Origin: Sulfurospirillaceae bacterium
Lineage (GTDB): Bacteria > Campylobacterota > Campylobacteria > Campylobacterales > Sulfurospirillaceae
Direction of reading: 5' to 3'
Assembly (NCBI GenBank): GCA_028684065.1
Contig: JAQUGO010000008.1
Location: 1 to 64,000 of the forward strand
Length of the DNA: 64,000 nucleotides
Notes under the pieces: generated by a model
The model's database searches: none
The model's input: the letters and a program-made list of their open reading frames with translations, nothing else
Told to the model about the DNA's origin: nothing
Made by a program: the position numbers and the translations under genes
Shown here: piece after piece, positions 19,999-26,635 of the stretch
Layout: every line of letters begins with the position of its first letter
Numbering within the stretch: the first letter of the stretch is position 1

Positions 19999-21069
19999 TT
20001 ATTTTGGTAAGCTTTCAATATAGAGCGATTGCGATGGGAATGCAAAAAGGGCTTTATGATTTGCAACAATTTGCATAATTTTTAAGTTAATATCTTCCCT
20101 TACATGTAAATACTCTTCCCACTGAATTGTTTTGGTGAAAAAATAGAGAAAAATGCTCAATGAGCTATCGGAAAATTCATCAAAACTCACTAAAATAGTC
20201 TCTTGATGAATATCCTTGTGTGATTTTAGCATCGCTTTGATTTCCTGAACGATAGTTTTCATTTGTTCAGGGTTGCTACTGTAGGTTAGGCCAATGCGCG
20301 TTTTGATACGTCGCTTGCCCATTTTAGACCAGTTGGTGATGGAAGCATCGGCCATTTTAGCATTGGGGACATGTACAAGTGCTTGAGCAAAAGTACGTAT
20401 TTTGGTAGAGCGAATGCCAATTTCTTCGATAAAGCCTTCTACAAAAGTAGTTTCTACCCAGTCTCCGACTTTAAAAGGACGATCTGTGAAAATAACTAAA
20501 GAGCCGAAGAGATTAGCTACGGTATCTTTGGCTGCTAAAGCAACGGCTAACCCACCTAACCCTAAAGATGCAACAAAAGCACTGACATTGATACCCCATT
20601 CTTGTAAAATGGACATAATTCCTAAGATAATGACGATAAAACGTAATGTTTTTTTAATAAAATTTTCAATATCGTGATGCAGTTCTTTACCAAATTTCGC
20701 ACTAAAATGGCTAAAGATATAAGCAAACTGATCAATAACGCGGTACAAAATCCAAAAGATAATAAAAATAAAAAATGACCGAATAAAGACATCTATAAAA
20801 AGGTCGAATTTCGTAAAGGGCAACCATGCTTTTGCTAAATAGGTACCTATTAAAACAATAGAAAGTTTTAGGGGCTCTTCTATGATATCTAAAAAGTTAT
20901 CGTCTGCATTTGTCTTAGTCTTACTCGCAAGACGGCGTAAGCTTACTAAGAGAGTTTTTGCAATTATCCTGCGTAGCAGTAACGAGAGAGAAAAAATAGT
21001 GATGGCTATAGCAATATGTGCTGCTTCAATCCCAAAGAGTTTATAATTTATAATTGCATCGAACGTCAT
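19999..21069 (-). CDS. MscS-family mechanosensitive channel
   Basis: The protein (about 356 residues) has four or five N-terminal membrane helices and the conserved MscS core: a glycine/alanine-rich pore helix (VASLGLGGLAVALAAKDTVANLFGS, about 178-202), the beta domain with FTDRPFKVGDWVE, and a C-terminal alpha/beta vestibule ending in PFPSQSLYIE-like sequence (AFPSQSLYIESLPK). I choose ATG 21069 (MTFDAIINYK) because AGGAAGAG lies just upstream; the longer frame starts at a TTG (21135) with no SD and overlaps the divergent transporter's leader. It interrupts an otherwise Campylobacter-like der/EamA/kdsA order. Confidence 0.88.
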   Translation of the reverse strand: MTFDAIINYKLFGIEAAHIAIAITIFSLSLLLRRIIAKTLLVSLRRLASKTKTNADDNFLDIIEEPLKLSIVLIGTYLAKAWLPFTKFDLFIDVFIRSFFIFIIFWILYRVIDQFAYIFSHFSAKFGKELHHDIENFIKKTLRFIVIILGIMSILQEWGINVSAFVASLGLGGLAVALAAKDTVANLFGSLVIFTDRPFKVGDWVETTFVEGFIEEIGIRSTKIRTFAQALVHVPNAKMADASITNWSKMGKRRIKTRIGLTYSSNPEQMKTIVQEIKAMLKSHKDIHQETILVSFDEFSDSSLSIFLYFFTKTIQWEEYLHVREDINLKIMQIVANHKALFAFPSQSLYIESLPK

Positions 21070-21152
21070 ATCTTCTCTTCCTTGTCTTAAAGTATCAACA
21101 GATTTTAACACATAAGAGATTAAGATTTCGTACAATGTAAAATGGAGAGACT

Positions 21153-22049
21153 GTGTTAGAAAATCTCAAAAATATCAATAGAGGCGTTTTATTTATGCTG
21201 ATTTCCTCTTTCAGCTTTGCGCTTGATAGCGCATTTGCAAAGATGCTCAGTTTGCATATGGACTCAATTGAAGTAGTATTTTTTCGTAATACAATTGGAA
21301 CATTGCTGGTTGCTGCAACTATCTTTAAAACTCCGATTGTACAAAAAGGTGGCAAACTATGGTTACTTGTTTTTAGAGCTTTCATTGGATTTGTTTCGAT
21401 GCTAGCCTTTTTTTACAACATTGCGCATATTCCTCTTGCTGATGCGATGACATTTTCACGTAGTGCCCCAATTTTCACAGCTATTTTTGCCTATATTTTT
21501 CTCAAAGAAAAGATTGGTGCACAAGGTTGGATTGCTGTTTTTATAGGTTTTTTAGGCATTGTATTGATTATGAAACCTAATGGCTTTATGCTTGATAAAA
21601 CGGATATTTTTGGTCTCTTCAGTGGTGTGGGTGCCGCACTTGCTTATACCAGTGTAAGAGAGCTTAAAAAATTTTATGATACGAGAAGTATTGTTTTAGC
21701 GTTTGTCTCATTAGGCACATTTATTCCGATTATCTTAATGGTATTGGGGGAGTATTATCCTTTGCCCATGTTTGATTTTATGGTAGGAAAATTTGTTATG
21801 CCGGTGGGAAGAATGTGGTTTTACATTATGTGTATGGGTGTTTTTGGTGCCATCGGGCAAGTGTATATGACAAAATCATTTGGGGTAGAGAGGGCAGGAA
21901 TTGTAGGTGCGGCTGGATATTCTATCATCTTTTTTTCCTTAATTATTGGTGTGATTTTAGGAGATGATTTACCAGATTTTATCGGACTATTTGGTATACT
22001 CTTGGTTATTATCAGTGGAATTATTGTAGCAAAGGAGAAACAAGGATGA
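21153..22049 (+). CDS. EamA/DMT-family transporter
   Basis: This 298-residue inner-membrane protein has ten predicted helices in two repeated EamA halves (about 5-135 and 150-295). Recognisable are [14 protein letters not shown] at the start, the [25 protein letters not shown] signature near 95-120, and a matching [23 protein letters not shown] in the second half. Substrate cannot be told from sequence. The start is GTG 21153 with GGAGAG 5-6 bases upstream. Its stop overlaps kdsA by 4 bases, as the equivalent membrane gene does in C. jejuni (Cj0385c next to kdsA). Confidence 0.87.
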
Positions 22050-22846
22050 TTTTAATAGCAGGACCATGCGTTATAGAGAGTAGAGACAATCTTTTTGCGG
22101 TCGCTGAAAAACTCGTAAAATACCATGAAGATGAAACCATAGATTTTTATTTTAAATCCAGCTTTGATAAAGCTAATCGCACCAGTATCGATAGTTTTCG
22201 AGGTCCTGGAATGGATGAGGGATTAAAACTTTTAGATGACGTCAGGCGTGAATTTGGCTTTAAACTTTTAACCGATATTCACGACTACACACAAGCAAAA
22301 CCAGTAGGTGAAGTGGTTGATGTGCTTCAAATTCCTGCTTTTTTATGTCGTCAGACGGATTTACTGGTAGCTGCCGCACAAACAAAATGTGTTGTAAACA
22401 TTAAAAAAGGACAGTTCTTAAACCCAGCGGATATGCGTTACTCGGTTAAAAAAGTGCTTGAAACCAGAGGTATAATCGAAGAGGGCCGTGAAATAGCACG
22501 TAAAGCAGGTGTTTGGTTAACGGAGCGCGGTTCAACATTTGGGTATGGCAATCTTGTGGTAGATGCGCGTAGCTTTATCATCATGCGAGCGTTTGCTCCT
22601 GTGATTTTTGATGCAACACATTCAGTTCAGATGCCAGGAGCGGAAGGTGGTAAAAGTGGTGGAAAACGTGAATTTGTTCGTCCCCTTTCACGCTCAGCCG
22701 CAGCTGTTGGTGTGGATGGATTTTTCTTTGAAACCCATATCAATCCATGTGATGCACTCTGTGATGGCCCTAATATGCTTGATTTAGAAGATTTAAGCCT
22801 TGCTATTGAGGATATTCAAAAAATACAAAAGAGTTTAGAAGGATAA
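22046..22846 (+). CDS. kdsA: 3-deoxy-8-phosphooctulonate synthase KdsA
   Basis: KdsA condenses phosphoenolpyruvate with arabinose 5-phosphate to make KDO-8-phosphate for lipopolysaccharide or lipooligosaccharide. The TIM-barrel signatures are clear: IAGPCVIES (about 3-11), the PEP-binding [11 protein letters not shown] near 38-48, and [11 protein letters not shown] near 205. The 266-residue length is normal. Its ATG overlaps the upstream transporter stop. In C. jejuni the next gene is ribH; here ovoA is inserted 3 bases downstream. Confidence 0.96.
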
Positions 22847-22849
22847 GGG

Positions 22850-24943
22850 ATGCAGGAGCTTATCCCCACACATAATATTGTCTTAAATACGGGCTCATTG
22901 ATTTATAAGCGAGTCCAAATACGTGAATATTTTCTCAAAACATATACTCTCTATGAAAAGCTTTTTGAAACACTCAAAGATGATGAGAGTTATTATTTAA
23001 CAGCAGACCCTCTTCGCCATCCTTTGGTTTTCTACTTTGGTCATACAGCCACTTTTTTTATCAACAAACTTGTTCTTGCTAAACTTTTAGATTCTCGGAT
23101 CAATCCGCGATATGAATCCATCTTTGCCATTGGTGTAGATGAAATGAGCTGGGATGATTTGAACCAATCCAATTATACATGGCCTAGTATTGATGAGATT
23201 AGGGTCTACCGTGAAAAGGTTAAAGTTTGTGTTCTTCAACTTATTGATACGTTGCCACTTCAACTACCTATTGATTGGGAAAGTCCTTTTTGGCCTATAA
23301 TGATGGGTATTGAACATGAACGAATTCATCTTGAAACCTCTTCAGTATTGATACGTCAGTTACCTCTTTTGCATGTTCGTCCTCAGCCTTTTTGGAAAGT
23401 CTGCCCGATAGATACACCTGTAGTTGACAATAGCCTTTTACATGTAAAAGGTAAGCAGGTACGTTTAGGAAAAGATAAAGATAACACCTATTATGGTTGG
23501 GATAATGAATATGGCTTACATATAAGTGACGTTAATGATTTTAAAGCTTCAAAATATCTTGTCAGTAATGCCGAATTTTTGACTTTCGTTGAAGAAGATG
23601 GTTATAACAAAGAGCAGTTCTGGAGCGAAGAGGGCTGGAAATGGCGTACATTTAAAGAAGCACAAATGCCTCTTTTTTGGCGTAAAGATAACGAAGGTTA
23701 TCATTTGCGTACTATGTGCGAAGAGATAACCATGCCGTGGAGTTGGCCCGTAGAGGTGAACTATCTTGAAGCAAAAGCATTTTGTAACTGGAAAAGCACT
23801 CAAACAGGCAAACCGATTCGCTTACCAAGTGAAGAAGAGTGGTATGTTTTGCGTGATCAATATATTAATGAAGAGGAACCACATTCTAAGAATACGCCAG
23901 CGAATATCAATTTAGAGTATTTTGCCTCCTCTGTTCCTGTTGATACATTTGCCTTTGGGGAGTTTTATGACCTTATTGGCAATGTATGGCAATGGAGTGA
24001 AACCCCAATGAATGGCTTTGATGGCTTCAAAGTTCACCCTTTGTATGATGATTTTTCGGTACCAACATTTGATGATAGACACAATATGATAAAAGGGGGC
24101 TCATGGATTAGTACCGGTAATGAAGTCTTGCGTTCAGCACGCTATGCATTTAGGCGCCATTTTTACCAACATGCAGGCTTCCGTTATGTCGAGTCAAATG
24201 AACCTGTTGTTGTAAAGTCTGTTTTTTATGAAACAGACTTTACGCTGAGCCAGATTTGTGAAGCGCATTTTGGTGATACTCAAAATAATTATTTTCAAGG
24301 TATTGCAGAATTTTGTCTAAGTTTGGATGGACCACGCAAAAAAGCTTTAGAAATAGGCTCCGGAGCGGGTCGAAGTACGTTTGAATTAGCGCGGCATTTT
24401 GATAAAGTCCATGGTATTGAATTTACTGCACGAGTTGTACGTCTGGCCACAGGTTTTAAAGAGAGTGGAAAGTTAAAATACGCTCTTAAAGAAGAGGGTG
24501 AGCTGGCAGAATTTTTTGAAAAAAGTTTACAAGATTTTAACTACATTGATGAGCCAAAAAAAGTAGAATTTTGGCAAGGAGACCCACATAATCTTAAACC
24601 TTATTTTCATGAGTATAATTTAGTGTTGGCCAATGATATTTTAGACACTTTGTATGACCCTAAACTTTTCTTGCAGACTATTCCTGAACGGATTGTAACG
24701 GGTGGGTATTTAGTGGTTGCAAGTAGTTATGATTGGAATGAAAGCAAAACACCGCGCGTAAAATGGCTCGGTGGTTTTAAGAAAAATGGCGAAAAATATA
24801 GTACTTTTGAGGCCTTAAGAGAAATTTTATCCAAGGACTTTGAATCCATTGGTGTACCTTGTGAAGTGCAATCAATATGGCATGAAAACAAACGTAAAAC
24901 CATTACAAAAGCTTTACAAGTGAGTGTATGGCGAAAAAAATAG
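22850..24943 (+). CDS. ovoA: 5-histidylcysteine sulfoxide synthase / mercaptohistidine N-methyltransferase OvoA
   Basis: OvoA links cysteine to histidine oxidatively and, through its C-terminal domain, methylates the imidazole to give ovothiol, a thiol antioxidant. The domain order fits: a DinB-like N-terminal helical domain with the iron-binding motif EHERIHLE (His156, His160, Glu162, plus an upstream histidine near 64), a formylglycine-generating-enzyme-like domain (about 205-455, with IRLPSEEEWYVL and WQWSETPMNGF), and a class I methyltransferase (about 495-690, ALEIGSGAGRSTFEL). Length 697 matches OvoA; the shorter EgtB lacks the methyltransferase. The cysteine-lyase step that finishes ovothiol is not in the window. 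It lies 3 bases after kdsA inside a block that is otherwise collinear with Campylobacter, so it looks like an operon insertion. Confidence 0.85.
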   Translation: MQELIPTHNIVLNTGSLIYKRVQIREYFLKTYTLYEKLFETLKDDESYYLTADPLRHPLVFYFGHTATFFINKLVLAKLLDSRINPRYESIFAIGVDEMSWDDLNQSNYTWPSIDEIRVYREKVKVCVLQLIDTLPLQLPIDWESPFWPIMMGIEHERIHLETSSVLIRQLPLLHVRPQPFWKVCPIDTPVVDNSLLHVKGKQVRLGKDKDNTYYGWDNEYGLHISDVNDFKASKYLVSNAEFLTFVEEDGYNKEQFWSEEGWKWRTFKEAQMPLFWRKDNEGYHLRTMCEEITMPWSWPVEVNYLEAKAFCNWKSTQTGKPIRLPSEEEWYVLRDQYINEEEPHSKNTPANINLEYFASSVPVDTFAFGEFYDLIGNVWQWSETPMNGFDGFKVHPLYDDFSVPTFDDRHNMIKGGSWISTGNEVLRSARYAFRRHFYQHAGFRYVESNEPVVVKSVFYETDFTLSQICEAHFGDTQNNYFQGIAEFCLSLDGPRKKALEIGSGAGRSTFELARHFDKVHGIEFTARVVRLATGFKESGKLKYALKEEGELAEFFEKSLQDFNYIDEPKKVEFWQGDPHNLKPYFHEYNLVLANDILDTLYDPKLFLQTIPERIVTGGYLVVASSYDWNESKTPRVKWLGGFKKNGEKYSTFEALREILSKDFESIGVPCEVQSIWHENKRKTITKALQVSVWRKK

Positions 24944-25070: not shown

Positions 25071-25535
25071 ATGAATATCATTGAAGGAAATCTTTCACTC
25101 AAAGGGAGTGAAAAGGTAGCGATTATTAATAGTAGATTTAACCATATCATCACGGATAGATTGGTTGAAGGTGCCCGCGATGCTTTTATACGTCACGGTG
25201 GAGATGAAAAAAATCTTGATTTGATTTTAGTTCCCGGTGCCTATGAAATTCCTTTGGCGCTGGATAAAATTTTAAGTGCTGGTAAATACGATGCTGTATG
25301 TTGCGTTGGCGCTGTTATACGTGGAAGTACACCCCATTTTGATTATGTGGCAGCTGAAACAACCAAAGGTGTTGCTAATACGGCACTTAAGTATCAAAAA
25401 CCCGTAACATTTGGTGTTTTAACAACGGATACGATTGAACAAGCAATTGAGCGTGCAGGCAGTAAAGCTGGTAATAAAGGCTTTGAAGCGATGACAGGGT
25501 TGATTGAACTCATTAGTTTATATAAAAATCTATAA
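25071..25535 (+). CDS. ribH: 6,7-dimethyl-8-ribityllumazine synthase RibH
   Basis: RibH forms the direct precursor of riboflavin from 5-amino-6-ribitylaminouracil and dihydroxybutanone phosphate. The 154-residue protein has the family landmarks [12 protein letters not shown] (about 16-27), [12 protein letters not shown], the catalytic-loop [17 protein letters not shown] (about 81-97) and [17 protein letters not shown]. The ATG has AAGGATA upstream. The 127-base gap after ovoA contains a TTGACA near 24965 and a small GGCTA-aata-TAGCC hairpin, so a separate promoter is likely. NusB follows after 9 bases. Confidence 0.96.
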
Positions 25536-25544
25536 GGATTATTG

Positions 25545-25952
25545 TTGGCAACACGACATCAAGTAAGAGAAAGCATTGTTGGACTTTTGTACGCAGGAGA
25601 TATTGGCAATGAGGGGATAGATAAGTTTATTGATGAATTATTTGAAGAAAAGAAGATTCGTAATCTTCAAAAAGAGTTTGCGTTAGCCCTTTATCACGGT
25701 ATTAAAGAAAATATTGTACGTGTCGATGAAACGATTAATATGCATCTTAAAGAATGGGATTTGGCACAAATTGGAACCATTGAGCGTGCCATTTTAAGAC
25801 TTGGTACGTATGAGATCTTGTTTTCAGAACTTGATAATGCTGTGGTTATTAATGAAGCGATAGAATTAGCCAAAAAATTGTGTAATGAAACTAGCCCTAA
25901 ATTTATTAATGGTGTTTTAGATGCCATTTGCAAAGAGCAGGAAACGCATTGA
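25545..25952 (+). CDS. nusB: Transcription antitermination factor NusB
   Basis: NusB is an all-helical RNA-binding protein of the rRNA antitermination complex. The N-terminus MATRHQVRESIVGLLYAGD and the C-terminal VVINEAIELAKKLCNETSPKFINGVLDA are characteristic. Two TTG codons are adjacent (25542 and 25545); I use 25545, which gives 135 residues and the standard MATRHQ start, with AAGGA 7 bases upstream. No ATG fits. The ribH-nusB pairing is widespread, and the stop shares one base with the pyrF start. Confidence 0.94.
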   Translation: MATRHQVRESIVGLLYAGDIGNEGIDKFIDELFEEKKIRNLQKEFALALYHGIKENIVRVDETINMHLKEWDLAQIGTIERAILRLGTYEILFSELDNAVVINEAIELAKKLCNETSPKFINGVLDAICKEQETH

Positions 25953-26635
25953 TGCAGTTATGTGTTGCCCTTGATTTACCAAGTAAAGAAGAAAACTTAG
26001 CTCTTGTTAAAAAGCTAAAAAGTGAAAATATCTGGCTAAAAGTAGGGTTACGCTCTTTTATTCGAGATGGTGAAGCTCTTTTAAAAGAGATAAAGTCCAT
26101 CAACCCTTCGTTTAAAATTTTTTTAGATTTGAAAATTTATGACATTCCTAATACAATGGCAGATGCAGCAGAGTCTGTTTCCCTGCTAGGTATCGATATG
26201 TTTAATGTCCATGCTTCAAGTGGAAAAAAGGCGATGCAAACAGTAATGCAACGTATTAATGCTCTTCCCAATCCTCCTATCGTTTTAGCTGTTACGGCAT
26301 TAACAAGTTTTGACAATGAATCTTTCGAAGCTATCTATCATAGCAGTATTGCTGAAAAAGCGGCTCAATTTGCTAGAGATACCTATGAAAGTGGGATGAA
26401 TGGTGTGGTCTGCTCTGTATTTGAGAGTCGCCTTATTAAGGCGCATACAGCACCAACTTTTTTAACATTAACTCCTGGTATTCGGCCTTTTGGCGAAAGC
26501 AGTAATGATCAAGAAAGAGTGGCTGATTTAGAAACTGCAAAAGAAGAAAAATCTGATTTTATAGTGGTCGGAAGACCCATTTACCTTCATGCAGATCCCC
26601 TAAGTGTTGTTCAAAAGATACTTGAAAAGATATAG
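25952..26635 (+). CDS. pyrF: Orotidine 5'-phosphate decarboxylase PyrF
   Basis: PyrF makes UMP from OMP. The catalytic Asp-Lys-Asp array is in FLDLKIYDIPNTMADA (about 55-70), and the phosphate-binding TPGIRPFG and IVVGRPIY motifs follow near 178 and 210. I start at ATG 25952 (MQLCVALDLPSKEEN), which overlaps the nusB stop by one base and gives the usual 227 residues; an upstream start inside nusB would add eight residues not seen in the family. Confidence 0.95.
   Translation: MQLCVALDLPSKEENLALVKKLKSENIWLKVGLRSFIRDGEALLKEIKSINPSFKIFLDLKIYDIPNTMADAAESVSLLGIDMFNVHASSGKKAMQTVMQRINALPNPPIVLAVTALTSFDNESFEAIYHSSIAEKAAQFARDTYESGMNGVVCSVFESRLIKAHTAPTFLTLTPGIRPFGESSNDQERVADLETAKEEKSDFIVVGRPIYLHADPLSVVQKILEKI

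Follow-up and report, generated by a model that had tools for sequence, protein, structure and literature searches.

We propose that a gene for ovothiol biosynthesis, ovoA, entered a conserved gene block on the stem of the genus Sulfurospirillum, that its product acts with an OvoB-type lyase to make 5-thiohistidine, and that the last, methylating step of the pathway has been changed; we put the probability of this overall reading at roughly 0.5. The gene lies in the window, by which we mean the whole 64,000-nucleotide stretch of a Sulfurospirillaceae contig that was analyzed, and it has the following features:

22850 to 24943, forward strand: ovoA (697 aa), a 5-histidylcysteine sulfoxide synthase with a fused SAM-dependent methyltransferase domain (profile, PDB and fold matches)
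22839 to 22843, forward strand: AAGGA, likely ribosome-binding site of ovoA, within the end of kdsA (read from the sequence)
22877 to 24190, forward strand: sulfoxide-synthase half at the N-terminus (residues 10-447), combining DinB-like and FGE-sulfatase folds (TIGR04344, PF12867, PF03781 and 8khq)
23042 to 23044, forward strand: codon of His65, putative iron ligand (kept in 72/72 OvoAs outside the genus)
23315 to 23329, forward strand: codons of His156 and His160 in the motif EHERIHLE, putative iron ligands (kept in the same 72/72)
24227 to 24937, forward strand: C-terminal methyltransferase domain in a genus-specific divergent form (TIGR04345, divergence, and fold match to OvoM)

Judged by profile and structure-database matches, this reading frame encodes a genuine, full-length OvoA. 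It begins with an ATG 3 bases past the kdsA stop codon, and the AAGGA inside the end of kdsA makes translational coupling of the two genes possible. Both halves exceed curated NCBIfam cut-offs, which places the N-terminal half in the OvoA family (TIGR04344, ovoA_Nterm; 702 bits against 400) and the C-terminal half in the OvoA C-terminal/OvoM family (TIGR04345, ovoA_Cterm; 266.5 bits against 170), in agreement with the original prediction of a full-length OvoA directly behind kdsA. In a PDB sequence search, the best-matching OvoA structure was OvoA_Th2 (8khq; 808 bits across residues 21-696), presumably from Hydrogenimonas thermophila, a member of the Campylobacterota, which has the same two-domain architecture, iron ligands and N-domain motifs and is 49% identical by structural alignment. 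A selenium or ergothioneine enzyme was rejected: OvsA (8u41), which acts with OvsM (9bxh) in the ovoselenol pathway and shares the same enzyme folds, scores only 72 bits against the 808 of OvoA, and the NCBIfam cut-offs of SenA (163 bits of 420 required) and EgtB (177 of 360) were missed. His65, His156 and His160, which we take to be the iron ligands of the OvoA family, are retained here as in all 72 aligned OvoAs from outside the genus, and the loss of metal-binding residues that had been named in advance as grounds for refutation was therefore not found.

The known pathway has three steps, assigned to OvoA, OvoB and a methyltransferase domain (PMC12631010). The sequence comparisons described below show that ovoA was inserted, that a partner gene exists, and that the methyltransferase half has diverged and is under constraint; we infer the chemistry throughout. 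Going by its family, metal ligands and fold, the N-terminal iron domain would join histidine and cysteine to give 5-histidylcysteine sulfoxide, and an unlinked PatB-family lyase (OvoB) would cleave this to 5-thiohistidine. The C-terminal domain, with its SAM-binding methyltransferase fold retained, a predicted acceptor pocket apparently rebuilt on the genus stem, and strong purifying selection acting on it since, would then methylate another position or another acceptor than in the N-pi methylation of 5-thiohistidine that yields ovothiol A. An ovothiol-type pathway is thus likely in this bacterium, given the complete OvoA and an OvoB homolog, as was originally supposed; ovothiol A is not assured as its end product because the genus carries a strongly altered methyltransferase half.

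The genes surrounding ovoA are those named in the original prediction, now confirmed by profiles: kdsA, der, ribH, nusB and pyrF exceed curated NCBIfam cut-offs, and EamA and MscS exceed Pfam cut-offs, as does AsmA, a further neighbor. Those nearest to ovoA in the window are:

19999 to 21135, reverse strand: MscS-type channel gene (Pfam cut-off)
21153 to 22049, forward strand: EamA-family transporter gene, overlapping the kdsA start (Pfam cut-off)
22046 to 22846, forward strand: kdsA, upstream neighbor of ovoA (NCBIfam cut-off)
25071 to 25535, forward strand: ribH, downstream neighbor of ovoA; directly after kdsA in most other Campylobacterota sampled (NCBIfam cut-off)
25542 to 26635, forward strand: nusB and pyrF (NCBIfam cut-off)

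The block der..EamA-kdsA-ovoA-ribH-nusB-pyrF-asmA recurs in all 14 other genus genomes that were mapped, and in a separate scan of partly overlapping genomes ovoA adjoins kdsA and/or ribH in 15/15 loci. Outside the genus, ribH and nusB come next after kdsA in 11 of 14 Campylobacterota genomes of other families (the remaining three have a wider kdsA-ribH gap or ribH out of reach) and directly by ribH, at a spacing of about 19 to 75 bases, in three of the seven genomes from other Sulfurospirillaceae genera; in the three other genera of the family ovoA is located elsewhere (5/5 loci). Since the slot is kept genus-wide and kdsA usually adjoins ribH elsewhere, the ovoA insertion is derived and has become fixed in the genus, and gene order dates the gene's arrival between kdsA and ribH to the Sulfurospirillum ancestor. 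The idea that ovoA had been added to an older gene order is borne out by these comparisons; the accompanying statement that ovoA and mscS were the only additions holds loosely, as just 10/14 of the other genus genomes have the MscS-type gene. Recent insertion of an ovoA of foreign origin into this one strain's genome would explain why the gene breaks an order otherwise conserved across the phylum, but it is refuted by the slot shared with 14/14 other genus genomes, by the scan, and by the single, fully supported clade that the genus OvoAs form, and we give it practically no chance.

The kdsA-ribH slot seems to accept additional genes besides ovoA. A GPR1/FUN34/YaaH-family transporter gene (PF01184) is found between ovoA and ribH in seven of the 14 other genus genomes (L044 7062-7676, reverse strand; equivalents in L045, L046, L048, L049, L051 and L052) and is absent from the window. 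Around ovoA, neither promoter-like sites (11; shuffle mean 12.8) nor terminator-like sites (4; shuffle mean 3.7) are in excess.

The ovothiol trait originally proposed for this bacterium is not peculiar to it but genus-wide: OvoA is matched in 15/15 genomes of the genus Sulfurospirillum and in 5/7 from the family's other genera, and TIGR04344 exceeds its cut-off in 119 of 397 Campylobacterota genomes in a phylum sample. The occurrence of OvoA in Campylobacterota, solved structures included, is already known and not new. One genus member (L057, genome G056) has a frameshift near residues 61-72 of ovoA in an otherwise complete genome, through either decay or sequencing error. In trees of the N-domain, the OvoAs of the family fall into three lineages, namely the window genus as one clade with full support, two genera (g2 and g3) together with OvoAs of another family that have a shortened C-terminal part, and a further genus (g4) nested in the main clade of that other family. 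Vertical inheritance within the family, with the genus and the five OvoAs of other genera held together, was rejected (p-AU 9e-56), as was a clade of the window genus with only the g2/g3 OvoAs (p-AU 7e-5). In a quick tree, the genus grouped with four OvoAs from Gammaproteobacteria (SH-aLRT 92); this grouping is absent from the careful tree, in which the branch from the genus to the next group has support of 75/84, and a clade of genus plus gammaproteobacterial sequences was not rejected as a constraint (p 0.228, with five OvoAs from outside the phylum). The phylogeny proposed as a check on the original prediction thus rejects family-level vertical descent, and with five extra-phylum OvoAs it places no donor. 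Viral contig and phage collections contained no match to suggest viral or phage carriage of ovoA.

A search for an OvoB cysteine-lyase elsewhere in the genome had likewise been proposed, and it recovered an unlinked PatB-family homolog among the genome's 16 PF00155 matches:

contig C5, 162625 to 163737, reverse strand: PatB-family C-S lyase, OvoB homolog (TIGR04350, 437 bits; cut-off 340)

Its best PDB sequence match is 5z0q (370 bits; next 301), entitled 'Crystal Structure of OvoB', the C-S lyase of ovothiol synthesis from what we take to be Erwinia tasmaniensis. A model of the lyase (mean pLDDT 92) superimposes on this structure with a Z of 54.2 and an rmsd of 1.4 over 376 residues, at 44% identity; the second-ranked structure in the fold search (Z 53.9) is tied with 5z0q, and it is the sequence score that makes the distinction. 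The protein is therefore a PatB/MalY-type PLP lyase nearest to the characterized OvoB, differing from the 5z0q system in that its gene is unlinked to ovoA. Across the phylum, a PatB-family lyase above cut-off occurs in 119/119 OvoA-positive versus 74/278 OvoA-negative genomes, counts that are uncorrected for relatedness, and within the family neither of the two genomes lacking OvoA has one above cut-off; this co-occurrence offers a usable marker for real producers. The lyase's best match in a plasmid collection is in an Aeromonas caviae record that also carries OvoA, and in a careful tree the lyases of the family group with the A. caviae lyase (99/92). The unlinked lyase is most likely the OvoB of the genus and would be the enzyme that cleaves 5-histidylcysteine sulfoxide.

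Lyase and ovoA share a locus in 38 of 80 mapped loci, within 140 bases in 37, and the two genes are likewise linked in Sulfurovum mangrovi. The ovoA-linked lyases belong to other PatB branches than that of Sulfurospirillum, and for the linked S. mangrovi lyase 5z0q ranks only 12th among PDB matches. The family has one lyase lineage (loci L181-L185, with L166-L180 from the genus) versus three OvoA lineages, a pattern suggesting that OvoA was exchanged in the family while its lyase stayed.

The original prediction spoke of a full OvoA domain set, and both halves do exceed their cut-offs, but the methyltransferase half is strongly altered throughout the genus; alignment reveals a divergent C-domain beside an ordinary N-domain, a contrast that had been missed. 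C-domain identity is 36-38% between the genus and other OvoAs versus 53% among the others, with corresponding N-domain values of 54-55% and 55%. Conservation was scored over 60 full-length OvoAs from outside the genus (12 shorter ones were excluded); of the columns at 90% or above, the genus has replaced 15/69 (strict) or 20/69 (looser) in the C-domain and 3/137 in the N-domain (p 2.9e-8, by Fisher tests that assume independent columns, and with reference sequences that are related). The same test on six other full-length clades gave 0 to 2 replaced C-domain columns, one clade of just two sequences gave 2, and three sets of shortened OvoAs gave 25 to 36, as expected from their missing parts. 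TIGR04345 scores are 266-291 bits in four genus members versus 313-335 in eight other full-length OvoAs. The genus stem measures 1.42 changes per column in a C-domain tree (quick method) versus 0.38-0.41 in N-domain trees, making it about 3.5-fold longer, and within the genus the median omega is 0.078 for the C-domain and 0.058 for the N-domain (35 of 91 pairs, the unsaturated ones), which indicates strong purifying selection on both halves. The SAM motif ExGxGxG is intact. In a non-exhaustive scan of genome contigs with the C-domain alignment and two patterns only, no variant methyltransferase was found outside the genus: the 15 loci recovered all come from Sulfurospirillum, Sulfurospirillaceae or Campylobacterota/Proteobacteria MAGs and all carry genes of the genus block. 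A search of openly licensed papers found no mention of an altered OvoA methyltransferase.

Three of the replaced residues stand out by their position:

24635 to 24649, forward strand: Asp596 and Thr600, after strand beta-4 (Asn in 58/60 and Arg in 59/60 others; strands from the model)
24731 to 24733, forward strand: Asp628, after strand beta-5 (Thr in 54/60 others; strands from the model)

Asn596 is replaced by Asp in 14/15 genus members, and Arg600 by Thr and Thr628 by Asp in 15/15, so that the genus departs from the OvoA C-terminal pattern of columns conserved at 90% or above in these residues, which are among the 15 to 20 of 69 columns replaced. Class I methyltransferases hold the acceptor in the region after strands beta-4 and beta-5, and in the OvoA model (mean pLDDT 86.9) residues 596, 600 and 628 follow these strands; on this topology, they are predicted to lie at the acceptor pocket. 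Conserved columns at the strand-end rim are replaced more often than elsewhere (13/26 versus 7/43, p 0.005, for rim windows chosen after the fact), and the new residues are conserved genus-wide at the predicted SAM and acceptor rim. The nearest known enzymes retain the three residues. In alignments, equivalents of N596, R600 and T628 are kept in the methyltransferase half of 8khq, in the selenium enzyme OvsM (9bxh), whose fold the C-domain matches with a Z of 33.8, and in OvoM (9bxl-9bxn), a stand-alone 5-thiohistidine N-methyltransferase from Sulfuricurvum sp. whose entry 9bxn is the complex with 5-thiohistidine. The solved OvoM chain is a methyltransferase alone and shares the fold of the C-domain model (Z 34.3 and rmsd 1.4 over 238 residues with 9bxl, 35% identity), yet where it keeps the residues after beta-4 and beta-5, Sulfurospirillum has Asp, Thr and Asp. 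The gain of D596 and D628 with the loss of Arg600 suggests an acceptor held by an amine instead of a carboxylate; candidate alternatives would be N-alpha methylation, or decarboxylated or peptide-bound 5-thiohistidine as acceptor.

A burst of change on the stem followed by constraint, in one domain only and centered on the acceptor side, therefore suggests a change in methylation, and because the predicted acceptor pocket was rebuilt and then constrained, the last step has probably changed. That the methyltransferase half has been retooled for another acceptor or atom, such that its end product is some 5-thiohistidine derivative different from ovothiol A, we advance tentatively and at less than even odds. 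Against the overall reading, the C-domain still scores above the TIGR04345 equivalog cut-off in the four members scored, rapid change in a gene acquired by horizontal transfer, offset by compensating changes, could give the same pattern, and OvoA is unlinked to a lyase from a family whose enzymes have other substrates. Since that cut-off is still exceeded, a conventional pathway, in which OvoA and OvoB work as they do in characterized systems and the divergent domain still N-pi-methylates 5-thiohistidine to ovothiol A, is nearly as likely as a changed methylation. The OvoM-like fold and the retained SAM motif favor the conventional pathway too, while the replacement of residues that OvoM, OvsM and 8khq all keep, and a stem lengthened some 3.5-fold where six other full-length clades replaced 0-2 columns, speak against it.

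The C-terminal half of OvoA looks evolutionarily unstable in Campylobacterota. In genus g39 (L091-L093 and L121), OvoAs of 472-491 aa have no methyltransferase domain and a PatB-family lyase gene lies about 90-140 bases away, and four others (L081, L095, L096 and L097) have a shortened domain that scores 100-135 bits, under the TIGR04345 cut-off of 170. An unmethylated product therefore seems to be tolerated in the phylum, which lends something to the idea that Sulfurospirillum has lost methyltransferase catalysis, keeping the domain for stability and producing plain 5-thiohistidine. This is nonetheless improbable, as the C-domain's low omega and the new residues conserved genus-wide at the SAM and acceptor rim are unlike decay.

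If the last step has indeed changed, a genus-wide conserved alteration confined to the methylation half would allow the idea of a new 5-thiohistidine product to be tested. Sulfurospirillum-type bacteria are mostly anaerobic to microaerophilic, which makes an O2-requiring antioxidant pathway in them a puzzle. What 5-thiohistidines do in bacterial physiology is a wider question: the introduction of PMC12631010 states that the usefulness of ovothiol is poorly understood, and a 5-thiohistidine N-acetyltransferase is described in the same paper as evidence of a chemically wider compound class. Bacterial OvoA and OvoB have been surveyed, OvoA-like proteins without a methyltransferase among them (PMC9103826), and of the openly licensed PMC papers searched, none proved relevant to ovothiol in Sulfurospirillum or Campylobacter.

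Two plasmid-borne loci outside the phylum were also observed. On a Rahnella aquatilis megaplasmid (L124), a gene for a site-specific integrase immediately precedes ovoA, which hints at a route of OvoA mobility. On a plasmid of Streptomyces sp. RerS4 (L128), a divergent OvoA is flanked by metK and by genes for a methyltransferase and an aminotransferase, and the locus may be a natural-product cluster.
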